Shown piece by piece: positions 2,458 through 15,163 of a DNA stretch of 49,731 nucleotides. The notes under the pieces are model-generated. The model searched no databases and was not told where the DNA came from. It saw only the letters and a program-made list of their open reading frames with translations. A program made the position numbers and the translations under genes. Positions within the stretch are counted from its first letter, which is position 1; the number at the start of each line of letters is the position of its first letter. Origin of the DNA: Candidatus Flemingiibacterium merdigallinarum (GTDB taxonomy: Bacteria; Bacillota; Clostridia; Oscillospirales; CAG-272); contig CAJFKR010000007.1 in NCBI GenBank assembly GCA_904386005.1, positions 1 through 49,731 of the forward strand. Reading direction: 5' to 3'.

Positions 2458-4452
2458 TTATTCGACACTAAACCAGTTTTCCGCGCTTGGATTCAGACGC
2501 AGCCGGATCGACTCGCGCTCGCCCGGCGACGTCACGACGATAGCATCGTCGCGCCGCTTGATATGCCAGCCTCGGATAGTCTCGGTGTCGCTCATCACAA
2601 TGACGTGCACATTTATGTGTTCGACCGCGAATTCGCTCGACGTGTAGTCGAATATATACGCCGACCCCTCTTTTCCCTGCCCCGCCTGATTCGGCTGCGG
2701 GTGGTAGTAGTCGTGGACAAAGCCCCACCTCTGTGACATCGACATATCGCCGAACGTGAAGAACTTCACGCCCGCGCCGCCCCGACGCAGGACTATGCGG
2801 TAGTCGTCGGCGATGTGCAGATCGAGCCCGTTTTCGCGATTGTTCGTGACAAAGTGCGACACGACCTTGACCGGCAGGTCGGCTTCGATCCGGTCGATTA
2901 TGAATATCACATCGGGCAGCCGGCAGATAAACACCCGCTCGCAGCGCTTGAAATGTCCGCCGTCCGCGACCGCTCCGTATGCCGCCGCGCAGTCGGACGC
3001 GAGGACAGTAAAACCGTCAGGGATAGTGTAGTTTACACGATGATTGAGCGGCGCCTGATGCGCGCGAATCGGTTTCTGCGTATAGCTGTTGCCGTCGGCG
3101 TCGACGAAATCCCATGTGTTGTGATGACTCGTCTTGCAGCTCTGCCGCCAGGTGTCGAGACGGTAGCAGCAGTGACCCGGGTCGACAAATATCCGCTCGC
3201 CTGACGCCGCGAGGACAAAGCTGTTTAAGTCGCAGTGACGGTGCGAGTCAACCTTGTGCGTCTCATAGCCGCTCTGCACCGCGAGTATCGCGCGCGGATT
3301 CTGCCAGCTGTCGCGCAAAACCGACGTTCCGGTCGCGAATTCACAGCAGAGCGGCATATCTATATCGCGTGGCGACAGCGCGTCGGGCAGCTCGCGCGCC
3401 GCAAGTAATGCGACGCTCCGCCAGCCGAACTGATTGAAAAATCCGAATGTAGCCAGCTCGTCCGGTCCGAGCATCGGGTCGGCGTAGGTGGTATCGAACA
3501 GCCAGCGCGCAAGTCCGCAGATCTTCGCGTCGTCATAATTCGCCGCAATGTGCAGAAGAATATCTCCGCTCGGACGGAAGATCGCCGCGCAGTCGCCGAA
3601 GTTGACCGAGCGCGGATAGGCTTTGGTGTCGGCGTCTGTCGGTGCCGAACGAGCCTTGCCGTCGTGAAGCGACAACATATGAAGCGGCTTCATATACATC
3701 AGACTCGCCGCCTGCCACTTGACCATACCCGCAATCGGGTCGAGCGGCAGCCGCTCCGACAGTCTCGGGTCGTATGCTAACAGTAAATTCCGCACCTGTA
3801 TCAATGCGAGCGACGCGTAGTTGCCGTATTGCAAAGTCTCGCCGTAGCCGTCCGAGTCGTACAGCCCGAGACAATCATTATACAGCCCGACCGCGCGCTC
3901 AACATTGTCTTGTAGTCCGAGCATTGCTGACGCGGTCGTGTAGCCACTGAGCAGTACGCAGTACCAGTTGTTGCCAATTTGACCGTTGATATACCGCTCG
4001 CAGAGCAACAGCCCCTTGTCCCGCAGCGCCGACCTGATTTCATCAGCTTCGGATTCATTGAACAGCTCGGGAGCAAGACAGGCTGCCTCGCAGACCGCGT
4101 TTGTGAGGTGCGCGGTTTCGAGCATACCGACCGGCGGATTGGCACGTTTTCTGAACCAGGGTCCGACCCACTCGTCGAGCGACAGCCGGCAGACCTCGAG
4201 CGTCCGGTCGTGCAGCCACTGACCGAGCCGCGCGTCTCGGTCGAGCGCGTATATGAACGCCGCGTCGGCGAACCGCTCCCAGATGAGGTGATACCACTCC
4301 TGCGTATCGCCCGACTGTACAAGCGCCGCCTCGGAAGTGTTATCGCGCACCCGCTCGCGCAGTGCCGACAGCAGCCGACCGCACTGACTGTCAGTCGGCA
4401 GCACGCGTATTATGTCAAGCTCGTCACTTCTGATATATCGTAAAAATCCCAT
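2458..4452 (-). CDS. Heparinase II/III-like polysaccharide lyase
   Basis: A 664-residue protein with the two-part layout of heparinase II/III-type lyases: a helical (alpha/alpha) toroid over about residues 1-350, then a beta-sandwich. NNWY (161-164), the segment DGYGETLQYGNY (201-212) and the block from HRHCDLN (404) to DPG (424-426) match the family's conserved sites, including candidate catalytic His and Tyr. The expected reaction is beta-elimination of a uronic-acid polysaccharide or oligosaccharide, giving an unsaturated end. There is no signal peptide, so it probably works on imported oligosaccharides in the cytoplasm. GGAGAT stands 8 nt before ATG 4452. It is followed on the same strand by the sugar-binding lipoprotein gene and preceded by the GH105-type hydrolase that would remove unsaturated ends. 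The exact substrate cannot be read from the sequence. Confidence 0.85.
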   Translation of the reverse strand: MGFLRYIRSDELDIIRVLPTDSQCGRLLSALRERVRDNTSEAALVQSGDTQEWYHLIWERFADAAFIYALDRDARLGQWLHDRTLEVCRLSLDEWVGPWFRKRANPPVGMLETAHLTNAVCEAACLAPELFNESEADEIRSALRDKGLLLCERYINGQIGNNWYCVLLSGYTTASAMLGLQDNVERAVGLYNDCLGLYDSDGYGETLQYGNYASLALIQVRNLLLAYDPRLSERLPLDPIAGMVKWQAASLMYMKPLHMLSLHDGKARSAPTDADTKAYPRSVNFGDCAAIFRPSGDILLHIAANYDDAKICGLARWLFDTTYADPMLGPDELATFGFFNQFGWRSVALLAARELPDALSPRDIDMPLCCEFATGTSVLRDSWQNPRAILAVQSGYETHKVDSHRHCDLNSFVLAASGERIFVDPGHCCYRLDTWRQSCKTSHHNTWDFVDADGNSYTQKPIRAHQAPLNHRVNYTIPDGFTVLASDCAAAYGAVADGGHFKRCERVFICRLPDVIFIIDRIEADLPVKVVSHFVTNNRENGLDLHIADDYRIVLRRGGAGVKFFTFGDMSMSQRWGFVHDYYHPQPNQAGQGKEGSAYIFDYTSSEFAVEHINVHVIVMSDTETIRGWHIKRRDDAIVVTSPGERESIRLRLNPSAENWFSVE

Positions 4453-4494
4453 AATATCATCTCCATTTCGGTTGAATACTTGCGATAAACGCGG

Positions 4495-5559
4495 TTATAC
4501 TCCAAGTCTCGCCGCTTCGGAGAGCGCGAGTATCACCGGACCCGCGCCATGCGGCTCGTCGCGGAAGGTCTTGCGGTGGTTGAGATAGGCTGATATCGTT
4601 CCATCACCCGGGCAGAGACAGCCGGGACAGCTGTTCACAATAGAATCATCCTCCGATATGCTCACCTTATACAGCCCGTCTATACCGCGCTTGAATATCG
4701 GCAGGTATTCGTTCCAGTCGAGCAGTCCATTTCGGATTCCGACTCCAATCGCGTACAGTATAAGACCTGTACCGCTCGTCTCCTCGTAGGATTCGAGAAT
4801 TCCGAGCTCGCTCTGCGTGTCGAGAAACTCGACGGTTATCTCCTGCCGCCACATACCGTTTTGCGACTGATACTTCGCGAGCGAATTGATGTGAGCCTTG
4901 TAGTACTCGATACAGCGTCCGCGTTCGGGGTGGTTCTCGGGCAGATGGGCGCAGAGCTCGGCGAGCGGTAGGATTCCCCAGCCATTGCCGCGGCTCCAGT
5001 GGTCGTCCGAAAACCTGCCCTCTCCGCAGAAGTCGCGGCTCTGATGCAGCAGCCCGCAGCTTTTGTCGAGGAACAGGTCGTACATCGCGAGCGACTGGAA
5101 CGCCGCCTCGTCGATATATTCGCCGCGACCGAGTTTTAGTCCGGAAAACAGCAGGAACGGAGTCGCCGCGGTCGCGACGTCGATCCAGACCTTATCAGGA
5201 TTGTCTCCATGAGGCATACTCAATATACCGTCGTGACTGCGCCGAGCGCTCATCAGCTCATCAGCATATTCCGCAAGCTGGCGTTCGTATTCGTCGCCTG
5301 ACAGCAAACCGGTATACACCACGCGCGCCTTCGCGATGCCGCCAACTCGGTAGCTCGGGAAATTGTACCTCGGATGTTCGACTCGGTCGGGAAACGCGTC
5401 GAGCATTCGCTTTGTCAGCTCGACCGAATCAGTGTCGCCGCTCGCTTCGCAGAGATTGACCATTCCGTACAACGCGATAAGCCCGTAATAATGATTGCTC
5501 TGCGGATTTACGGTCAGATAGTGCGCAAATATCGACTTCGCTCTTTCGATGTGATTCAT
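4495..5559 (-). CDS. Unsaturated glycuronyl hydrolase, GH105/GH88 type (YteR-like)
   Basis: A 354-residue (alpha/alpha)6-barrel protein. The WSRGNGWG motif (188-195) is the hallmark of GH105 and relatives, and Asp127 in VWID is a good candidate for the catalytic acid. The family hydrates the double bond of unsaturated uronyl residues produced by lyases and so frees the end sugar. It has no signal peptide, so it should act in the cytoplasm. The start is set at ATG 5559, because AAAGGAG sits 6 nt upstream of it. An ATG 21 nt earlier (5580) overlaps the previous gene's stop but has no comparable ribosome site. Placement beside a heparinase II/III-like lyase supports a lyase-then-hydrolase route for an acidic glycan. 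Confidence 0.87.
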   Translation of the reverse strand: MNHIERAKSIFAHYLTVNPQSNHYYGLIALYGMVNLCEASGDTDSVELTKRMLDAFPDRVEHPRYNFPSYRVGGIAKARVVYTGLLSGDEYERQLAEYADELMSARRSHDGILSMPHGDNPDKVWIDVATAATPFLLFSGLKLGRGEYIDEAAFQSLAMYDLFLDKSCGLLHQSRDFCGEGRFSDDHWSRGNGWGILPLAELCAHLPENHPERGRCIEYYKAHINSLAKYQSQNGMWRQEITVEFLDTQSELGILESYEETSGTGLILYAIGVGIRNGLLDWNEYLPIFKRGIDGLYKVSISEDDSIVNSCPGCLCPGDGTISAYLNHRKTFRDEPHGAGPVILALSEAARLGV

Positions 5560-5576
5560 GCTAAGCTCCTTTCGCT

Positions 5577-6284
5577 TCATAGTGATAAAAAGCTCTCAAA
5601 ATTCAGTTCTGAGAACGCGATTCGGCTGTCGCACTCGAGGACAAAAACAATGACGTCGGCAATGTCATCAGGACGCAGCAGCTTCGCGCGATTGACCGGA
5701 CGGTTCCCCCAGAACGGCGTGTCCGCGCCGCCCGGATTCAGCGTTGTCACGCGGATGTTCTGCTCCTTGAACTGCTGCTGCATACCGGCTGACAGCATAT
5801 TGACCGCGGCTTTCGCCGTGCAGTAGAGTGGAGCGTTCGCGTTAGCGCGCTTCGCCGCCATTGAGCCGATGTTGACAATCAGTCCGCCGCGCTCGCTGTC
5901 GACCGCGCGCGCGAAATACTTTGACATGAGCAGACTGCCTTTCAGATTGACGTCGAGCATCAGCTCGTAGTCGGCGACATTCAGCTCGGCGATTTTCGTC
6001 GGTATGCTCAGCCCCGCGAGATTGAGCAGACAGTCGGGCGCACCAAAACGTTCTACCGCGCGGCGTGTGAAGCTCTCGATATCAGCTTCACTGCTCACAT
6101 CGACGACGCCGGATATTATTTCCGTCCGCGCCGACAGCTCATCCGCAAGCGACGCCAGCGCATCCGCGTCGTTAGACGCGAGCGCGAGATTAGCCCCCCT
6201 ATCGGCGAGCTTGCGGCAGACACAGCTGCCGATACCGCCGTTCGCTCCGGTAACAATGACATTAAGTCCCGCTATTTTTCTCAT
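5577..6284 (-). CDS. Short-chain dehydrogenase/reductase
   Basis: A 235-residue classical SDR. The cofactor motif TGANGGIG is at 12-19, NLAG at 88-91, and the catalytic Ser141, Tyr154 and Lys158 (YCTAK) are all present. It should be an NAD(P)-dependent cytoplasmic oxidoreductase. In this operon it plausibly acts on a keto-sugar acid released by the lyase/hydrolase pair, as KduD does for unsaturated galacturonate products, but the sequence does not fix the substrate. GGAGG lies 9 nt before ATG 6284. The stop overlaps the upstream in-frame ATG of the next gene by 4 nt (ATGA). The leader contains an unusual 14-bp tandem repeat. Confidence 0.88.
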   Translation of the reverse strand: MRKIAGLNVIVTGANGGIGSCVCRKLADRGANLALASNDADALASLADELSARTEIISGVVDVSSEADIESFTRRAVERFGAPDCLLNLAGLSIPTKIAELNVADYELMLDVNLKGSLLMSKYFARAVDSERGGLIVNIGSMAAKRANANAPLYCTAKAAVNMLSAGMQQQFKEQNIRVTTLNPGGADTPFWGNRPVNRAKLLRPDDIADVIVFVLECDSRIAFSELNFESFLSL

Positions 6285-6315
6285 TATATATTACCTCCGT
6301 ACAAAATAACAAAAA

Positions 6316-6360
6316 CCTAACAACTAACACCTAACAACTAACACCTAACAACTAACACCT
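6316..6360. repeat. Tandem repeat, 14 bp x 3.2, between rraA-like and SDR genes
   Basis: The unit CCTAACAACTAACA is repeated three times without change and is followed by CCT. On the coding (minus) strand it reads as alternating heptamers TTAGGTG and TTAGTTG. It fills nearly the whole spacer between two co-transcribed genes and is free of stable hairpins. It is a likely site of slippage. Confidence 0.9.
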
Positions 6361-6361
6361 T

Positions 6362-7036
6362 TCAAAAGTATCCGCCGTTTCTGACGACCTCGGACGGTTT
6401 TGTGCCGCTCACGACCTGACGCTTTATCTCGACCTCGTTTGTCAGTATCCGCTCGGCTTTCAGCAGTACCTCATACGCCAGCCCTCTCGGTACGACCAGT
6501 ACTCCGTCGATATCTCCGAAGATGATGTCGCCCGGGTGGATTGTCACATCGCCGATTTTGACCGGTATCTGATAATCGATCATGCGGAAGCGGCCGAGCA
6601 TACCGTTTGACGTCCGGTAGCGGTGGAATATCGGGAAATCGAGCCCGAGTATGCGGTCGGTGTCGCGGATTCCGCCGTCTATGACCGCGCCGCGGCAGCC
6701 GCGGGTCTTGGCGGCGAGCGTCATAATCTCGCCCCACTGCGCAGATTTGTCGTCGCCGCTCGTGTCCCAGACGACGACGCTGTCCGGATGTATCGCCTCG
6801 AGCATCTCGGCGCGGCGCTCCATCTCGCCTTCGAGCGTCAGATTCTTCGCGCCCTTGATCGTGAACGCTATGCCGCAGACCTTCATTTTTTCGCGCAGCG
6901 GAAGTATTTCGTGCGGCAGTGTGTTGTCAAGATAGCCGTATTCGCGCAGGACATCGTTGACCGCGCCGCTGAACAGCTTCTCGTACCGCTCGCACAATTC
7001 TTTGTCCGGAATGGGAAATGTGATATCGTTATTCAT
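6362..7036 (-). CDS. RraA-like / HMG-aldolase-family protein
   Basis: A 224-residue protein of the RraA/4-hydroxy-4-methyl-2-oxoglutarate aldolase fold. WGEIMTLAAK (101-110), GAVIDGGIRD (116-125) and GDIIFGDIDGV lie where the family places them, and an acid (Glu103) is spaced 20 residues from Arg124-Asp125, the metal and pyruvate-binding signature. Family members are either class II pyruvate aldolases or RNase E inhibitors. As the first gene of a glycan operon, an aldolase or lyase acting on a keto acid is more likely here. GGAGG lies 5 nt before ATG 7036. The -10-like TATAAT of its presumed promoter (7092-7097, minus strand) lacks a good -35, which fits control by the divergent AraC-type activator. 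Confidence 0.82.
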   Translation of the reverse strand: MNNDITFPIPDKELCERYEKLFSGAVNDVLREYGYLDNTLPHEILPLREKMKVCGIAFTIKGAKNLTLEGEMERRAEMLEAIHPDSVVVWDTSGDDKSAQWGEIMTLAAKTRGCRGAVIDGGIRDTDRILGLDFPIFHRYRTSNGMLGRFRMIDYQIPVKIGDVTIHPGDIIFGDIDGVLVVPRGLAYEVLLKAERILTNEVEIKRQVVSGTKPSEVVRNGGYF

Positions 7037-7064
7037 TTTTCCTCCAAAATAATGTTGACTACTA

Positions 7065-7093
7065 TTGATTTTTTCGAAGTTTTATGCTACTAT
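7065..7093 (+). promoter_or_regulatory. Promoter of the AraC-family gene
   Basis: A TTGATT box (7065-7070) is followed after 17 bp by TACTAT (7088-7093), which carries an extended -10 TG at 7085-7086. A minus-strand TATAAT (7092-7097) for the divergent operon overlaps this -10, so the two promoters probably compete. Confidence 0.5.
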
Positions 7094-7126
7094 TATACTA
7101 TAGTCCACAAAAAGCGAGGAGATTTC

Positions 7127-7921
7127 ATGACCGAATACACCGAAATCGACTTTCAGGTCGGAGTGCCGTTCTTTGTCGTTGACCGCAAGCCGGACATAAA
7201 TTGGAATTACGCCAGTCCAAACACACGTGACTGGTATGTGCTCGGTTACGCGAGAAGCGGCTCGGCATATTACAATTTCTCGGGAAATACCCAGACCGCC
7301 GCGAAGGGCAATGTAATATTCACGCGCAGCAACGAAAGCTATTCGGCGTACAGCAAGCCGGACGATCCGTGGTCGTTCATCTCGGCAGCATTTACCATCG
7401 AATTCGGCGACCCCGAATCCGAACAGGTCGTGAGCTCGCTGCCGAATATATTCAAGTGCAGCGACAGCGTGCCGATGGCTGACAACTTTGGCGAGCTCGC
7501 GCGCGTCTGGTCGGCGAAGCCGTGTGGCTACAAGCTGAAATGCCGCAGCATACTGCTTGATATTATGTATACCCTGCTCGCCGACGAGGACCGCCGCCGC
7601 AATCACAGCGCGCATTTCGCGAAGATAAACGAGATTGTCGAGTTCCTGCGCCAGAATTACACCGGCTCATATTCGGTCGACGAGCTGAGCGAGCTGTCCG
7701 GACTCTCGCCGTCCTACTTCCGCTCGCTTTTCAAGCAGCTGACCGGACTGACTACCGTGCAGTTCCAAAACAAGCTGAAGATAGACAAGGCAAAGGATCT
7801 GATAATCAGCCACAGCTGCAACATCACCGAAGCCGCCGAAGCGGTCGGATTCAGCGATGTCTACTATTTCTCGCGTATGTTCCGCAAAATAACCGGCAAG
7901 AATCCCTCCGAGTTTTTATGA
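7127..7921 (+). CDS. AraC-family transcriptional regulator of the glycan operon
   Basis: The 264-residue protein has an N-terminal sensor half (about 1-160, cupin-like) and a C-terminal double helix-turn-helix (about 170-264) with SVDELSELSGLSPSYFRSLFKQ and the typical FSDVYYFSRMFRKITGKNPSEF second helix. The open frame extends far upstream, but AGCGAGGAG just before ATG 7127 and the homology both place the start there. It is divergent from the operon headed by the RraA-like gene, with only 90 bp between starts. That is the usual position of a local activator responding to a sugar. Confidence 0.88.
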   Translation: MTEYTEIDFQVGVPFFVVDRKPDINWNYASPNTRDWYVLGYARSGSAYYNFSGNTQTAAKGNVIFTRSNESYSAYSKPDDPWSFISAAFTIEFGDPESEQVVSSLPNIFKCSDSVPMADNFGELARVWSAKPCGYKLKCRSILLDIMYTLLADEDRRRNHSAHFAKINEIVEFLRQNYTGSYSVDELSELSGLSPSYFRSLFKQLTGLTTVQFQNKLKIDKAKDLIISHSCNITEAAEAVGFSDVYYFSRMFRKITGKNPSEFL

Positions 7922-8154: not shown

Positions 8155-11100
8155 TTACCACTCGCGGTCGCGAAGCTCCTTTGCCCGCTCGACCGCAGCC
8201 TTGTACCGCTCCTCACTTCGCACGCTGTCGAACCACTCCCAGCCGTGCGGCGAAGTAAGTCCGCGGTAGAATAAATCCCGTGTGCATATAGTGTCAAGCA
8301 CACTCCAGTCATCAAGCGGCTCGCGCGAGCCGTCGGGCAGCTCGATTATACCCTTGCCGTGTATCAGCTTCACGCCGCCGAATATCAGCTCGTCGCCGAC
8401 ATCGAGCGGCTCGCCGTCTTGGATTTTCAGCCATTCGGGCGCGAGCTCGAGCGACTCATCGAGATTCTGATATGCCCTCTCTTTTTCGCCTGTTCCGAAC
8501 AGCGCACAGGCGTTGCGGAATTTAATTGACACATACAGCCCGAGGAACGCGCGCGGAATCTCGCCGTCAGGCGACAGCGACTCGAGCATTCGCAGCCGGT
8601 ATTCGTGCCAGGCGACCGCCTTGTCCGGTCTACCCCAGTAGCGATCCGGACGACCGAGGTAGTGCAAAAGCAGCTTCAGATTGTTGATATCGTGACGCAT
8701 ACGACTTTCGTCATGCTTGCCGTCATTCCACAACGTCTCTTCGGCGACCTCATCCCATATGCTGCCATAGTCGGTGACTCTGTACGTTATATTCTTCACT
8801 CCGCATCGGTCCTCATATATCGCTATATTGCCTCGGTTGTCTCTCGCATATGAATAATCGGCATATGCTTCACATCCGTCGGTCAGATCGATCGCGTCGT
8901 AATGACGTGTCAATTTTTCACAGATTGGCATATAACCCTCGCCGACTCCCGAATATGACGTCAGCTCATACACGCATTTGCAGACGTCCACTTGCCAGTA
9001 GAACACAGCACGCACAATGCCGATACCTTTGGCGAAATAATATTCCTTTTTGCCGTTGCGATACTCGAGTCCGGATCCAAATCCAGATACATCGAGTGTC
9101 AGCTTTATACAGTCGTCAAAGCTGCCGGCTTTGGTTGTAATCGGCTCACAGCTCTCACAGCTGAGCTTAGTTCTGACCTGATAATCAAGGCGGAAGAATT
9201 CGTATGTCAGCTTTGCTCCCGCCTGCCATTCGTCCGACCAGATACATTCGGTGGCGCTTGAAAGTATACCATAGATATCATTGAAAACAACCGCTTTTAT
9301 ACTATTATATGATATGCGCGCCTTCCATTCAAACGACCAATTTCGATTGTCTTTAATACTATATCTTCCATCTCGGACTGATACCTCACTATACTGAAAA
9401 AAGTTCCACAATCCAACCGAGGTAAGTGTCGGATTGAATTCCTCATTCGTATCGAATATCCGCCTCATTACTGACACGGCAGATTTTGTGTGAGCCTTTT
9501 GTGCCGGAGTCGACGCGAGCTCCTGGACACGCGACATCGCTTCGCTGACATCGTGCAGCTTGCCGTCGCTGCCGAAATATTCGCGCCGAATCTCGGTCAT
9601 CATATCGAGCCAGCTGTCAAGGTCATATTTCAGCCGCACGTTTCCGATAACCGCGCCGAATATCGTCTTTTTGCCGTCCGACCAGATAACCTTGTGACAG
9701 CTTAAATACCTCTGATATTCGGGGTCATAACCGGCGGTATACTCCCAGCTGTTGCCGATGTCACACGGAATCAGTCCGTCACCGCGCACATTGTATTTGC
9801 ACAGCCGCCGCGTCTCGTCGATAACGCCGTCCCGATAGCGCTGGGCGACGATACCGACTCCCGATTTGTAGTAGGTGTCGCAGGTACACCGTATGTTTTC
9901 GGTCGTCCAAAGCTGACAGCCGTCAAAGACTCCGCAGGGAGTTTCGACAGTCGCCGAATCGTCGGTATAGGTCAAGGTCGTGCCGTCCGAGCCGACATAG
10001 CTTTCGCCGACACTCAGCCGTTCAAGCGTGAAGTGACCGTCGCAATAAGACGCGTTACAGAAGATATTGTATGTGGAATCATGACATAAATAGCCCCACA
10101 CGCCCGAGTCATAATAATATTGCTGCCAATAGCGGGGAGTAGTTTTATTGACCGCGTCTGTGTCACAATACTGCTCACTCGCGATCGCGAGCATCGAGAT
10201 TCGGTTTTCCTCTGTTCCGGCGCAGAATACTTCGCGCAGCTTGTGCAGCTCGAGTATCGACTCGGAGAGCGCGCGGTACGCGTCCGACTCGGGGAGAATC
10301 GATATCGCCCGCTTTAGCGCGTCGATACCCTCGTCAGTCTTGCCTTGATTGATGAGCTCGCGACCGAGCCAGTGCCACTCGCGGCCGAGCGCGACCGTGA
10401 AGCCTTTTGCTTCAAGTAACGGTATCTGCTTGTTTTGCATAAACTCGAGCTTTTCATTACCCCAGAGCTTCTCATCCTCGCGCGCGACGATGAACGCCAT
10501 GACTTCGTCGTTCTTGCCGAGCTCGGCGGTTTCGCGCAGGCGGGCGTACAGCTCGTCGTTCTGCTTGCCCGGAATCCACCACCAGCCGCGCAGCAGGACG
10601 TCGGCCATCGCGTGATACTTGTCGGTCGATTCGGGCAGCTCCTCGACGTCGCGCAAAACGTCGCGATAGACACTCTCGAATCCGTTCTTCTGCTTGTTGT
10701 ACTGCCAGAGCTTGAGCTCCTCGACCTTTTTCATGACCCGGCGTACAAAGCTGTCGTTCATTGTTTCATCCATTGCACACAATTCCTTTCTTAAATGTTT
10801 TCTCCCGTCGTGTAGCTGCCGCTTGACCGTGCCCTCGGAAATGCGCATACGGTCGGCGATTTCGGCAATCGAAAGCCCGTCGAAATAGTGCAGGCTGATA
10901 ATCATCCGCACCTTTTCGGGCAGGCTGTCGACCCGCTCGCGCAGCTGCGCCCGCTCCTCTGACCGCATATAACGGTATTCGGGATTGCTCGTCTCGTCGT
11001 CGGGCAGACTATACAGCAAGTCAAGCGCATCCTCGTCCGATTCGGCGACCGCCGGAAAATGCTCCATATATTCGCTGTATCGAACACGCATATTCAGCGC

Positions 11101-11346
11101 GCAGCGCTTCGCTATCCGCACGACCCAGACTCCGAATTTCTCGGGCTCGCGCAGAGTATTCAGCTTCATCCATGCCGCGATGAACGCGTCCTGCGCCGCG
11201 TCGTCCGCCATGAATTTACTGTGAAGCAGGCTCATCGCCGCCGTCGTGACCCTATACTGATAGCGCGCGACGAGGATCTCATACGCCGACTGGTCGCCGG
11301 CGAGCGTCAGCATAACGAGCGTTTTGTCGTCAAGCTCCGAATACAT
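8155..11346 (-). CDS. Giant ECF sigma factor with ~870-residue C-terminal extension
   Basis: A 1063-residue protein. Sigma region 2 covers about residues 20-85 (DDAAQDAFIAAWMKL) and sigma region 4 about 133-188 (LPEKVRMIISLHYF..., ISEGTVKRQLHDGRKHL). Everything after about 190 lies outside any sigma domain. The extension has no hydrophobic stretch long enough for a membrane span. It contains TPR-like helices (around 322-352 and 943-972) and two related modules at about 466-530 and 736-808. Each of these carries T..GxFDxC, YY..G(V/I)GIV and a Cys-Tyr strand, like the TapB/DUF3108-type fold. The start at ATG 11346 (MYSELDD) fits sigma homology; an upstream in-frame start at 11442 would add 32 atypical residues. 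Typical ECF factors have about 180 residues. No anti-sigma gene is adjacent, so the extension may do the sensing. Confidence 0.85.
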   Translation of the reverse strand: MYSELDDKTLVMLTLAGDQSAYEILVARYQYRVTTAAMSLLHSKFMADDAAQDAFIAAWMKLNTLREPEKFGVWVVRIAKRCALNMRVRYSEYMEHFPAVAESDEDALDLLYSLPDDETSNPEYRYMRSEERAQLRERVDSLPEKVRMIISLHYFDGLSIAEIADRMRISEGTVKRQLHDGRKHLRKELCAMDETMNDSFVRRVMKKVEELKLWQYNKQKNGFESVYRDVLRDVEELPESTDKYHAMADVLLRGWWWIPGKQNDELYARLRETAELGKNDEVMAFIVAREDEKLWGNEKLEFMQNKQIPLLEAKGFTVALGREWHWLGRELINQGKTDEGIDALKRAISILPESDAYRALSESILELHKLREVFCAGTEENRISMLAIASEQYCDTDAVNKTTPRYWQQYYYDSGVWGYLCHDSTYNIFCNASYCDGHFTLERLSVGESYVGSDGTTLTYTDDSATVETPCGVFDGCQLWTTENIRCTCDTYYKSGVGIVAQRYRDGVIDETRRLCKYNVRGDGLIPCDIGNSWEYTAGYDPEYQRYLSCHKVIWSDGKKTIFGAVIGNVRLKYDLDSWLDMMTEIRREYFGSDGKLHDVSEAMSRVQELASTPAQKAHTKSAVSVMRRIFDTNEEFNPTLTSVGLWNFFQYSEVSVRDGRYSIKDNRNWSFEWKARISYNSIKAVVFNDIYGILSSATECIWSDEWQAGAKLTYEFFRLDYQVRTKLSCESCEPITTKAGSFDDCIKLTLDVSGFGSGLEYRNGKKEYYFAKGIGIVRAVFYWQVDVCKCVYELTSYSGVGEGYMPICEKLTRHYDAIDLTDGCEAYADYSYARDNRGNIAIYEDRCGVKNITYRVTDYGSIWDEVAEETLWNDGKHDESRMRHDINNLKLLLHYLGRPDRYWGRPDKAVAWHEYRLRMLESLSPDGEIPRAFLGLYVSIKFRNACALFGTGEKERAYQNLDESLELAPEWLKIQDGEPLDVGDELIFGGVKLIHGKGIIELPDGSREPLDDWSVLDTICTRDLFYRGLTSPHGWEWFDSVRSEERYKAAVERAKELRDREW

Positions 11347-11440
11347 TTTTCCACCGTCCTTAAGGTTTGATTGGGAATTTAGCTTTGCGAACCGAATAAT
11401 AAATCCGCGGAAACGAGTTAGGAGTGAGGAGTTTTGGTAC

Positions 11441-11465
11441 ATAAAATTCCCTGCGGGAATTTTAT
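11441..11465. repeat. Palindrome in the leader of the sigma-factor gene
   Basis: Arms ATAAAATTCCC and GGGAATTTTAT (11 bp) surround a TGC loop. It lies in the untranslated leader between the ECF-type promoter and ATG 11346. Beside it, TTAGGAG-TGAGGAG heptamers (11418-11431) resemble the heptamers at 6316-6360. Confidence 0.75.
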
Positions 11466-11484
11466 GAAATATTATTCGGTTACA

Positions 11485-11518
11485 CTATATAGACAGTCAA
11501 TTGAATGAAAAGGTTGTG
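11485..11518 (-). promoter_or_regulatory. ECF-type promoter of the sigma-factor gene
   Basis: On the minus strand CACAACC (11518-11512) is followed by TTTT and, 17 nt after AACC, by GTCTATATAG (11494-11485). AACC at -35 and GTC at -10 with this spacing is the classical ECF promoter layout. It reads into the sigma gene with a leader of about 135 nt, so autoregulation is likely. Confidence 0.6.
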
Positions 11519-11587: not shown

Positions 11588-12433
11588 TTACTTGCGAATC
11601 TCAATCTCGCAGTCGCAGGGATAGACTTCGCGGCCGCGGATTATCGCGCCAATCGAGTCGGCGGTGATTTTGCCCGACATCGGATTCTTGACCGAGTCGA
11701 TGCCGCCGATGATATCAGCCTGAACGTCCGAATACTCGAACGCGAGGTCGCAGCCCTCGAGCGTGCAGTCGACAAGCGTCAGCTTTTTGCAGTAGCAGAA
11801 CGGCTGTGTACCGCTGATTTTGCAGTTTCGGAGGGTCAGGTTCTCCGAGTACCAGCCGAAATACTCGCCGTTGATCACCGAATTCTCGACCGTAATATTC
11901 TTCGCGTGCCAGAACGAGTCCTTCGTCTGGAAATGCGAATCGTATATCTCGGCATTCTCAACATACTGGAACGAATATTTGCCTTTGAGCGTCAGATTAT
12001 GTACGGTCATGTTACGGCTTTCAAAGAATGGATACTCCGACTCAATTTCGCAGTCGGTGACATTCAGCCGGTCGCAGCGCCAGCCGAATTCGGGTGAGAC
12101 CGCGCGGCAGTTTTTCAATGTGATATCCTGACATTCGCGCAGGCACTTGACGCCGTTTATCTCGGTGCCGTTTATAATTCCGTCGGTCGAATACCATAAC
12201 GGCGCGCGGCAGGTCTCGGACATCGACGAGTCGGAAAGCGTAAATTTATGTGAATGCCACAGTGGATAACGCAGCTCAAAACGGCAATTCTTCACCGCGA
12301 TATCCCGCGACTCTTTCATCGCCGACTCGCCGTCGGCAGGTCCCATGAAGCTGCAATCTACGACCTCAGCGTCGGACAGTGCATACAGCGCGCGCTCCTC
12401 ATCGTAGGTCTTTCCGTTTATCGTTATTTTCAT
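11588..12433 (-). CDS. DUF3737-family right-handed beta-helix protein
   Basis: A 281-residue protein built almost wholly of short repeats of about 20 residues ending in patterns such as ITLKNCR, LNVTDCE, ITVENSV and LTLRNCK. This is the signature of a right-handed parallel beta-helix of the DUF3737 type. There is no signal peptide, so it appears cytoplasmic. The function of the family is not known to me; pectin-lyase-like folds often bind carbohydrate. ATG 12433 is preferred, with AAAGGA 9 nt upstream; an ATG 6 nt earlier is too close to the same site. It lies 54 nt behind an AraC-family gene on the same strand and is probably co-transcribed with it. Confidence 0.85.
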   Translation of the reverse strand: MKITINGKTYDEERALYALSDAEVVDCSFMGPADGESAMKESRDIAVKNCRFELRYPLWHSHKFTLSDSSMSETCRAPLWYSTDGIINGTEINGVKCLRECQDITLKNCRAVSPEFGWRCDRLNVTDCEIESEYPFFESRNMTVHNLTLKGKYSFQYVENAEIYDSHFQTKDSFWHAKNITVENSVINGEYFGWYSENLTLRNCKISGTQPFCYCKKLTLVDCTLEGCDLAFEYSDVQADIIGGIDSVKNPMSGKITADSIGAIIRGREVYPCDCEIEIRK

Positions 12434-12487
12434 AGTCATTCATCCTTTCAATCTACCTGATAAAATTATATAATGCTTATAGTTTCG

Positions 12488-13321
12488 TCACTCAAAGTTC
12501 GTGTTTATTGAAGTACTTATTCGATACTGACCGGGTGTGAAGCCGGCGCGCTTTGTGAAGAAAACCGAAAGATGTCCGGCGTTGCAGAATCCGGTCTTTG
12601 CGGCGATGGCTTCGAGCGTCAGGTCGGTGGTTTTTAATAATGTGCAGATTTCCTTGAACCGCAGTCTCGCGCAGTATTCGACCGCTCCGCAGCCGAACAG
12701 CTGCTTTGACGCGCGTTCAAGACAGGCGCGCGAAACGCCGAGCTGCCGGCACATATCGTCGAGCGACAGCTGCCACGGAGGCGTTTCGGAAAGCATATTC
12801 GTGAACCGCTTCACGAAATCTCCGCATTTGGGGTCGCGGCTGCGCAGAGACTCAAACGAATCGAGCAGTATCCCCTCGGCAAGGTTGACCGCGCGCATAC
12901 GATTTTGCAGTGACGGCGCGTCGATAAGCGCGCGCAGGCGCTCATATCCGGCTTCGGTCACATGGTTCGAGGTGACGGTGAACTTCTGCTGTGTCAGGCA
13001 TTCAAGCGTCCGGAACAGGCAGCGGTCGTCGTCCGACGGCGATATGTCCATACCGATTTGCGAATAACCGTTCTCCGAGGTGAGCCGGTGAGCGGTACAA
13101 GCCGGCAGAATAAAGGTCTGTCCTGCCTCCACACGCGTCTCGTGACCGGCAATCATCACGTCGACACTGCCGCCGGTGATGTGGTTGACATGGTAAAATT
13201 CGTGCAGGTGGTAGTCAAGCGTATAGCCCGCGGGCGTCTGCATAACATTGATGCGGCAGAACGGCTTAGGCAGGCGGTCGGAAATGCTTGCGTAAAATAT
13301 GGGTTTGTCAGTGCGTATCAT
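12488..13321 (-). CDS. AraC-family regulator with N-terminal cupin
   Basis: A 277-residue regulator. The first ~150 residues form a cupin-like sensor (YHLHEFYHVNHITGG... and the AGQTFILPACTAHRL strand). The last ~100 form the AraC double HTH (SLDDMCRQLGVSRACLERASKQLFG and LTLEAIAAKTGFCNAGHLSVFFTKRAGFTPGQYR). A strong GGAGGTGATGGAG precedes ATG 13321. The gene is divergent from the predicted toroid enzyme at 13469, and the shared 147-bp promoter region carries direct repeats suited to AraC-type binding. It probably controls itself, the DUF3737 gene behind it and the divergent enzyme. Confidence 0.9.
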   Translation of the reverse strand: MIRTDKPIFYASISDRLPKPFCRINVMQTPAGYTLDYHLHEFYHVNHITGGSVDVMIAGHETRVEAGQTFILPACTAHRLTSENGYSQIGMDISPSDDDRCLFRTLECLTQQKFTVTSNHVTEAGYERLRALIDAPSLQNRMRAVNLAEGILLDSFESLRSRDPKCGDFVKRFTNMLSETPPWQLSLDDMCRQLGVSRACLERASKQLFGCGAVEYCARLRFKEICTLLKTTDLTLEAIAAKTGFCNAGHLSVFFTKRAGFTPGQYRISTSINTNFE

Positions 13322-13342
13322 GTCTATACTCCATCACCTCCC

Positions 13343-13378
13343 GATACGATTATATAAATGCTATCTGATACGATTATA
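13343..13378. promoter_or_regulatory. 12-bp direct repeat, candidate AraC-type operator
   Basis: GATACGATTATA occurs at 13343-13354 and again at 13367-13378, 24 bp apart, in the divergent promoter region. AraC-family proteins commonly bind tandem direct repeats about two helical turns apart. The second copy contains the -10 box of the regulator gene. Confidence 0.6.
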
Positions 13379-13401
13379 CAATAATTTGCGAAAATAATCA
13401 A
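13373..13401 (-). promoter_or_regulatory. Promoter of the AraC-family gene at 12488-13321
   Basis: On the minus strand TTGATT (13401-13396), a 17-bp spacer and TATAAT (13378-13373). The -10 box lies in the right copy of the direct repeat, so binding there would repress the regulator's own gene. Confidence 0.75.
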
Positions 13402-13430
13402 TTGACGAATTGTAAACAATGAAGTATAAT
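13402..13430 (+). promoter_or_regulatory. Promoter of the toroid-enzyme gene
   Basis: TTGACG (13402-13407), a 17-bp spacer and TATAAT (13425-13430). The spacer holds the small palindrome ATTGT-AA-ACAAT (13409-13420). The -35 box directly abuts the -35 box of the divergent promoter. Confidence 0.8.
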
Positions 13431-13468
13431 ATGGTATATTAAATCAAAAATCAGAAAGGAAACGTAAA

Positions 13469-15163
13469 ATGGATCAACTAAAACAACGCTCGCTCGACCT
13501 CATGAAAAAATGGTGCGACTCGCTGCTCAGCTATCAGGTTGAGAATAAAAGCGAGTACCTCGACGGCGCGCTGCTCTGCCCCGCCTGCCACGTCGTTCAT
13601 GGTCGTATCGCCGACCTCTGCTACCCGCTGACGACGCTCTACATATATACTGGCGAAAAGCGCTATCTTGACGCCGCCGACAAACTCATCGACTGGACCG
13701 AATACAATCTGAAACGCCCGGACGGCAGCTACAACAACGACGCGGGCAGTGTCTGGAAAGGCATAACGGCCTTTTCGGCGACCGCCATCGGCGACTGTCT
13801 ATATCACTTCGCGGACAAGCTGCCGCCCGAGCTCGCGTCAAAATGGCGCAATATCTTCGTCCGGCTCAGCGACTTCTGCCATTACTATTTTGACAGCTTC
13901 AACCCGAACATCAACTACTTCGCCGGAGCCGCCTGTGAGCTCGCGCTCGCGTGGAAAATCACCGGCGACAAGCGCTACCTCGACAAGGCTAACCACTGGG
14001 AGCGCTTCTGCCGCGACTATTTCGACGAAAACGGTCTGTTCTACGGCGAGGGAAAGCCGCTCGACCTCTTGACCGACAAGGGCTGCCGCGCGATAGACAT
14101 TGGCTACAACTTGGAGGAGTCGATGCCACTGCTGCTGTGCCACGCGATTCTGACCGAGAACGAGGACAAGATCGACTTCTACAAAGCACGTATGATTGAC
14201 CACCTCGAATTTCTGCTTCCCGACGGCGCGCTCGACAACAGCTTCGGCACTCGCCACAACAAGTGGACCTACTGGGGCAGCCGCACGTCCGACGGCGTCG
14301 CCGAGGGACTCGCACTGATGCTCGACGATCCGCAGTTCGCGAAAGCCTGCGACTTGGTTGTCGGACAATATGAAGCCTGCACTCACGATGGTCTGCTCGT
14401 TCCCCCGATGCAATCGGACGCGGGAGAGCCGCCCTGTCTGCACCACTCGTTCTGTCACGCGAAGGCGCTCGCCGCGGTCGTCAACGCCGAAGCCGAACCG
14501 GCTGATTTTACTGATACAGTATTGTCCTGCGAAACCGAATACGGCGTGAAATCCTTCCAGAGCGGCAATCTGCTGCTCGTGTCAAAATACGGCTGGCGCG
14601 CTACATTCAGTTCAATCGACATTGTGTTCTACCGCGGCGCCGAGAATTACGGCGGCTCGATGAATCTGCTCTGGCACAAGTCGACCGGTCCGATCTGCGC
14701 CGCGACTATGCACGAATATGTGCCGTCCGAGCCGCTGAATATGCAGTATCTGCGCCATTCGGACAGCTCGCCCTGCATGACGCCGCGCATCGTCATCGGC
14801 AATTACTCGTCCGACTGCGACAAATCGGTCGTGCTGACTCACATGAGCTATTCGGACAAGCTCATCGTCACCGCTCACGGCGAGGATTGGTGGGTCGATT
14901 TCAGCTTCGCTCCGAACAAATTGGCAATCGAGGCGCGCTGCGACCGGTCGTTCGACTACTACCTGCCGCTCATCTGCGACCATAAGACCGAAGCTGTATT
15001 GTCTGACAATCGACTCACAGTCGGGCAGCTGTCACTCACCTGCGACGGCAAGCTTTCAGCCGACACCGACAAACGAGTATACAATCAGGTCGGTGGCTTC
15101 GAGTATGTGCCGGTCAAATTGAGCGCGGAAAAACGCCTTATCGCGACGCTTGAGTTGAATTGA
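13469..15163 (+). CDS. Predicted (alpha/alpha)-toroid carbohydrate-active protein, family not recognised
   Basis: A 564-residue cytoplasmic protein without signal peptide. The first ~340 residues are helical hairpins with repeated motifs such as GEKRYLDAADKLIDW and GDKRYLDKANHWERF, typical of (alpha/alpha)6/7 barrels. The last ~200 look like a beta-sandwich (STGPICAATMHEY, SDKLIVTAHGEDWWVDFSF). This two-part build is shared by polysaccharide lyases such as heparinase- and alginate-type enzymes and by some hydrolases. I cannot name the family or the catalytic residues; His, Tyr and Glu are abundant in EGKPLDLLTDKGCRAIDIGYNLEESMPL. AAAGGAAAC precedes ATG 13469. It is a single-gene unit, divergent from an AraC regulator and closed by a strong terminator. 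Confidence 0.7.
   Translation: MDQLKQRSLDLMKKWCDSLLSYQVENKSEYLDGALLCPACHVVHGRIADLCYPLTTLYIYTGEKRYLDAADKLIDWTEYNLKRPDGSYNNDAGSVWKGITAFSATAIGDCLYHFADKLPPELASKWRNIFVRLSDFCHYYFDSFNPNINYFAGAACELALAWKITGDKRYLDKANHWERFCRDYFDENGLFYGEGKPLDLLTDKGCRAIDIGYNLEESMPLLLCHAILTENEDKIDFYKARMIDHLEFLLPDGALDNSFGTRHNKWTYWGSRTSDGVAEGLALMLDDPQFAKACDLVVGQYEACTHDGLLVPPMQSDAGEPPCLHHSFCHAKALAAVVNAEAEPADFTDTVLSCETEYGVKSFQSGNLLLVSKYGWRATFSSIDIVFYRGAENYGGSMNLLWHKSTGPICAATMHEYVPSEPLNMQYLRHSDSSPCMTPRIVIGNYSSDCDKSVVLTHMSYSDKLIVTAHGEDWWVDFSFAPNKLAIEARCDRSFDYYLPLICDHKTEAVLSDNRLTVGQLSLTCDGKLSADTDKRVYNQVGGFEYVPVKLSAEKRLIATLELN

Follow-up and report, generated by a model that had tools for sequence, protein, structure and literature searches.

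How an extracytoplasmic function (ECF) sigma factor with a long C-terminal extension is kept off when no anti-sigma gene accompanies it is the question raised by a gene of Candidatus Flemingiibacterium merdigallinarum (Clostridia, Oscillospirales), located in a stretch of 49,731 nucleotides (contig CAJFKR010000007.1, assembly GCA_904386005.1), hereafter named the window. This gene, an open frame of 1063 codons without interruption on the minus strand (8155-11346), codes for a sigma factor prolonged by about 870 residues. Proteins in which sigma and regulator are fused are generally taken for one-protein switches, and a sequence-only reading of the window had interpreted the gene in this manner. 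The analysis described here favours, with a probability of about 0.6, a different view, in which the gene makes two products, namely the fusion and a free extension translated from a start codon at the joint between both parts, and in which the extension restrains the sigma factor.

The sigma part, of about 190 residues, comprises no region other than 2 and 4, as the sequence-only reading had proposed; the region 3 family is absent from the Pfam matches of the whole protein, and solved ECF sigma factors match the query as far as residue 189. The start of the extension could be refined to residue 192. Residues 189-197 form a low-confidence joint in the structure model (predicted local distance difference test, pLDDT, below 50), and this domain joint is probably flexible. 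Searching and modelling the C-terminal part, as had been recommended, revealed TPR-like helices, followed by two tandem DUF3108-like beta modules and a helical end. The two beta modules are related to each other according to HHalign (probability 98.3, E 2.4e-14), and the model of residues 376-860 has a pLDDT of 92.3. The PF21347 family was found in 56 of the 56 members of the aligned beta region; its score is 29.6 bits for the beta region alone, above the curated cut-off of 27, but slightly under it (26.9 bits) for the whole protein. The expected solubility of the extension was also confirmed, since the hydropathy maximum over 19 residues is 1.14; by this measure no membrane span is present in the protein, and a membrane-anchored extension was ruled out. 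Long extensions also occur in other ECF groups, which makes length alone less remarkable. In other respects, the helical C-terminal module (about 667-867 of the extension used as query) recurs in shorter frames of about 375-465 residues (G232, G089, G384, G026, G003 and G017).

An assembly or sequencing artefact joining two genes, an error that the sequence-only reading had allowed for, was excluded by the homologues. The search with the extension gave 444 homologues among 7995 scored candidates, and 114 of the 120 listed are full-length fusions of 1014-1087 residues in which the sigma domains are present. Likewise, 136 of the 143 open frames matching the extension in loci of related genomes also match sigma in frame (duplicates included), while seven match the extension only. 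Interruptions between both parts were found only as rare broken copies: in one gene (L052/L018), a stop lies about 22 codons beyond the joint, and L045 (1044-4212), counted among the 136 although its in-frame sigma is limited to residues 158-191, carries a frameshift inside sigma region 4 with the extension and its start signal intact. A set of 58 member sequences (P0044) begins at the joint, with the same N-terminus as that of L045.

The joint carries an internal start codon preceded by a Shine-Dalgarno (SD) sequence, AGAAAGGA in the window gene. Conservation was assessed in 103 distinct genes, the set left after dropping copies with identical 3' ends; it includes three disrupted genes (L045, L087 and L146), L052/L018 being outside on account of its stop beyond the joint. 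At codon 192, 96 of these genes have a start codon (94 ATG and 2 GTG). In another five, which belong to one clade, ACA or ACG stands at this position, but an in-frame ATG lies two codons upstream; only L097 and L112 have neither. AAAGG lies upstream of the joint start in 89 of the 103, most of the other 14 having GAGGAG, GAGGGG or similar. The purine-rich stretch is kept despite residue changes, RGE being encoded by aga gga gaa, RRE by aga agg gaa and RKG by aga aag gga, instead of RKE. The 16S 3' end was not found in the source genome. GAAAGGA is a common 7-mer before the first start of these genes (52 of 98 upstream regions), and is therefore an SD form in use. On these grounds, ribosomes are predicted to initiate at codon 192.

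With regard to SD strength, the mean energy is -7.0 at the joint versus -2.5 at 2272 other in-frame ATGs. One result weighs against internal initiation: the joint is the strongest SD in only 33 of the 103 genes. SD strength alone was consequently rejected as proof, and tests of messenger RNA (mRNA) structure and codon choice were added for this reason. In 60-nt windows, the mean folding energy is -5.6 kcal/mol at the joint versus -12.9 (standard deviation 2.0) elsewhere; among 85 positions, taken at intervals of 10 codons, none is less structured than the joint, and this holds after GC correction. When an SD of -5 or lower is combined with a fold of -7 or higher, 74 of 103 genes qualify at the joint versus 34 of 2248 other in-frame ATGs, with at most 3% in each of the 19 other columns having at least 30 ATG. 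For example, M806 has an SD as strong as that of the joint, yet is strongly folded. The values for the window gene itself are -6.4 (SD) and -3.1 (fold).

Codon choice was examined in 487 columns in which at least 60 genes share one residue, Met and Trp excluded, the expectation being the usage of each gene. R186 has the top z value, AGA being used in 84 of 103 genes versus 22 expected, and K187 ranks sixth, with AAG in 89 of 91; the second and third ranks fall to R182 and R184, located immediately upstream. K187 is extreme among 41 Lys columns for its AAG fraction (median 49%), and R186 among 38 Arg columns for that of NGA codons. These z values are inflated by shared ancestry, and kinship was addressed by parsimony on a FastTree tree. 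K187 underwent two AAA/AAG changes, the fewest of 20 Lys columns (median 18.5), and R186 17 six-codon changes, the fewest of 27 Arg columns (median 33). If only NGA versus other codons are considered, R186 shows five changes, tied with residue 304 (also five).

Besides the protein of the window gene, the source genome encodes three sigma factors, about 530-575 residues long, whose extension is of another type and measures about 350 residues. The extension of one of them (L005) has no BLASTP similarity to that of the window gene (best E 0.65). This second family is present in 61 of 146 family genomes, often in several copies. A start codon lies near the joint in all 34 aligned frames from 32 loci (33 ATG and 1 GTG). 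The mean SD energy is -6.1 at the joint versus -2.8 at 405 other ATGs, a comparison biased in favour of the joint because the scoring took the best of several nearby codons; in addition, none of 50 positions is less structured than this joint. By these measures, the second family shows the same internal SD and start signature. Its upstream regions carry a different ECF-like motif, GAACC-N15-CGAC, in 14 of 33 cases. A second-family gene was noticed within the fetched flanks of a window-gene homologue in three of 80 loci (L048, L078 and L102).

ECF-type promoters are characterised by AAC in the -35 and GTC in the -10 element. A motif of this type (consensus CAACCTTTT-N12-TGTCTA) is present upstream of 82 of 98 homologues, a second spacing and a relaxed form being allowed; five of the 103 genes gave no upstream region of sufficient length. 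The AACCT/TGTC pair at spacing 15 occurs in 74 of the 98, versus six for the best pair in one shuffled set. Such a distribution suggests self-activation, and the fused sigma factor is predicted to read its own promoter, giving positive feedback. The strict pattern was further sought in 54 genomes: 38 matches were obtained in 27 carriers, 21 of them being the family's own promoters by coordinate comparison, and 11 in 27 genomes lacking the gene, with reversed controls at 2 and 5. The motif thus suggests autoregulation and a small regulon. A large regulon is not supported, a looser pattern giving five matches in the source genome versus three in the reversed control. Among 23 loci with matches other than own promoters (four from the source genome), the motif overlaps an open frame of at least 130 codons in 19 and does not in four. 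At L190, the motif is followed by an extended sigma gene of another kind, with Pfam matches to sigma regions 2 and 4, and a sigma cascade is possible there. A similar site stands before a 69-codon frame without Pfam match (L191), the motif precedes a 72-codon fragment of the window-gene family at L189, and nothing clear lies downstream at L180. At L200, L208 and L209, which are among the 19, a consensus-like site lies 21-112 bases ahead of frames (162-249 codons) whose products look membrane-bound on visual inspection.

The conserved start, the SD, the codon bias, the open mRNA and their repetition in a second family therefore predict a fusion and a free extension, and no free sigma factor. 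As there is no stop codon after the sigma part, free sigma could arise only by proteolysis. Since the internal start adds a product without sigma regions, the regulator would always exceed sigma. We can propose that the self-activating sigma factor is held inactive by its own extension until a signal arrives, that the DUF3108-like modules may bind a ligand or partner, and that the free extension, devoid of sigma regions, serves as additional inhibitor or enters mixed oligomers, thereby setting the threshold of the loop. The sequence-only reading would then stand as regards a built-in regulator, which agrees with the lack of a membrane span and of a recurrent anti-sigma neighbour (see below) and with the gene's own ECF-like promoter, whereas a one-protein system is probably wrong in view of the internal SD and start. 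If this holds, the regulator-to-sigma ratio is set by translation inside one gene and sigma is never free, which offers one explanation of how an extended sigma factor can stay off when no anti-sigma gene is present. The same signature may go unnoticed in further extended sigma factors, since the long form is all that gene callers report. We consider it an even bet that ECF sigma genes of this self-activating kind, which make no free sigma and produce the regulator in free form from an in-frame start lying where region 4 ends, are a widespread class. Such genes would amount to a fused sigma/anti-sigma operon in which the second ribosome-binding site has been retained; the switch point would be set by how much fusion is made relative to free regulator, and at least two extension families in these Clostridia would share this design.

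In the review sections devoted to them, ECF41, ECF42, ECF56 and ECF238 are ECF sigma factors with soluble regulatory C-terminal extensions (PMC8999054). The window gene has in common with them the fusion to a soluble C-terminal module and the absence of a separate anti-sigma factor, but differs by its TPR and duplicated DUF3108-like modules, its conserved internal start and an extension of 870 residues, whereas the SnoaL and TPR examples of the review have about 120-200. No SnoaL-like domain, a trait of ECF41 and ECF56, was detected among the 22 Pfam families matching up to E 5. The CXC motif located between regions 2 and 4 in CorE-like factors (ECF238, former ECF44) is absent, the only Cys within residues 1-190 being at positions 82 and 190. 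Whereas the TPR extension of ECF42 has about 200 residues, the TPR-like residues 199-365 are followed here by about 700 more. Membrane-fused ECF48, ECF52, ECF53 and IutY, as treated in the same review, also combine sigma and an anti-sigma-like extension in one chain, but the window protein has no membrane span, and their extensions reach up to 400 residues (PMC8999054). With respect to the internal start, the gene resembles two-polypeptide phage endolysins, in which an in-frame start at a domain boundary yields a C-terminal product. Both endolysin products are proven and can assemble together (PMC9430671); these are lysis enzymes, whereas the window gene belongs to transcription and its two products are predicted. 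HrcQ and Spa33 of type III secretion are likewise reported to give more than one protein per gene through an internal start, but are secretion-system parts (PMC8553256, PMC6925163). Searches of open-access literature, judged from titles and abstract openings, gave no extended sigma gene with an internal start. A soluble regulatory ECF extension and an internal start are each known separately, and their combination would be new.

The ECF42 comparison raises a first alternative, namely that the extension is needed for activity instead of being inhibitory. The TPR extension of ECF42 is essential for activity, CorE-like sigma factors are reviewed in the same sense (PMC8999054, sections on these groups), and the window protein has a TPR-like part. 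Nevertheless, if the promoter is self-activating and no separate brake exists, the system would have to be switched off in some other way, and we regard this alternative as unlikely, although a serious contender. It is rather doubtful that the free extension acts apart from sigma, for instance as a competitor for a partner or ligand, sigma being controlled mainly by its own transcription. The intact extension and start signal of L045, in spite of its frameshifted sigma part, speak for such an independent role, as does the presence of the C-terminal module in other frames; on the other hand, the extension is joined to sigma sequence in nearly all open frames examined, and four listed proteins start at the joint, none of which has been demonstrated to be a clean free-standing gene.

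The inhibitory extension with internal initiation must also be weighed against a single-protein sensor, in which the fusion would be the sole product, the SD and ATG being left over as relics from an old operon with separate sigma and regulator genes. Where a sigma gene is followed by its regulator gene, an SD and a start codon are expected at the 3' end of the former, and two of 103 genes have lost the start. A relic should, however, decay, whereas the synonymous and start positions are nearly fixed among members that share only 34-53% identity with the query in alignment A3 (one member reaches 95%), and start loss is offset by GTG or a nearby ATG; we consider this explanation improbable. A translational pause, by which the SD-like stretch would delay elongating ribosomes at the boundary of sigma and extension to allow folding, with no initiation there, fits the location of the site at a low-confidence, probably flexible joint, but a pause depends neither on a start codon at constant spacing nor on unstructured mRNA, and the GTG and shifted-ATG substitutions preserve initiation, not methionine, which makes it very improbable.

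Table 1. Coordinates of the features of the sigma factor gene, and of second-family genes in their own loci
Feature	Position	Strand	Basis or details
Full-length gene, ECF sigma factor and extension	8155..11346	-	1063 aa; open frame, related fusions
Sigma-70 region 2	11086..11274	-	residues 25-87
Sigma-70 region 4	10792..10950	-	residues 133-185; Pfam PF08281, E 1.3e-17
Internal Shine-Dalgarno AGAAAGGA	10784..10791	-	codons 186-188; codon bias
Internal start codon, ATG	10771..10773	-	codon 192
Predicted second product, free extension, 872 aa	8155..10773	-	in-frame internal start, SD and open mRNA
TPR-like helical domain	10252..10752	-	residues 199-365
DUF3108-like beta module 1	9634..10074	-	residues about 425-571; HHalign to module 2
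DUF3108-like beta module 2	8791..9276	-	residues about 691-852; Pfam PF21347
Helical C-terminal module	8167..8775	-	residues about 858-1060; structure model
ECF-type promoter CAACCTTTT-N12-TGTCTA	11490..11516	-	motif match, homologue upstream regions
Interspersed repeat piece in leader	11415..11463	-	between promoter and start
Terminator-like hairpin past stop codon	8076..8104	-	13-pair stem
Second-family sigma genes	L005 337-2064; L006 1438-3027; L007 430-2040	-; +; -	also L147-L176

The spread of the gene, which the sequence-only reading had proposed to map among Clostridia, was counted by whole genomes; the following figures, which include the source genome, are lower bounds, few candidates having been scored per genome. 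In the family, 72 of 196 whole genomes carry it (whole protein, E up to 1e-40). With the extension alone (E up to 1e-20), matches were obtained in 48 of 394 genomes of the order, four of them with the C-terminal module only, in eight of 291 of the class, and in one of 398 of the phylum, the source genome itself. The named relatives (80 of 121 loci retained) are metagenome bins, mostly labelled Clostridia, Oscillospiraceae, Lachnospiraceae or Ruminococcus, with one Bacteroides, and animal gut samples are named for many of them.

No recurrent neighbour, whether an anti-sigma factor or a partner, emerged from 81 loci (80 relatives and the window), the largest cluster other than the gene itself reaching 13 loci in a clustering of frames of at least 80 codons within flanks of at most 5 kb, many contigs being shorter; a conserved neighbour of this kind was thus rejected. 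As regards the YCII-domain protein that lies in the neighbourhood of ECF42, no recurrent neighbour of any type was found in these loci, though no YCII profile search was made. In the window, the neighbouring genes (2458-7921 and 11588-15163) code for GH88, a short-chain dehydrogenase, RraA-like, heparinase-like and DUF3737 proteins, two AraC regulators and a weak GH127 match; they are largely carbohydrate-related, with no evident link to sigma. The distance from promoter to start is 169 in the window, compared with about 60-100 in most relatives. At 11380-11475, the leader holds a hairpin-forming interspersed repeat, for which a 96-base query gave 47 matches in the genome, itself included.
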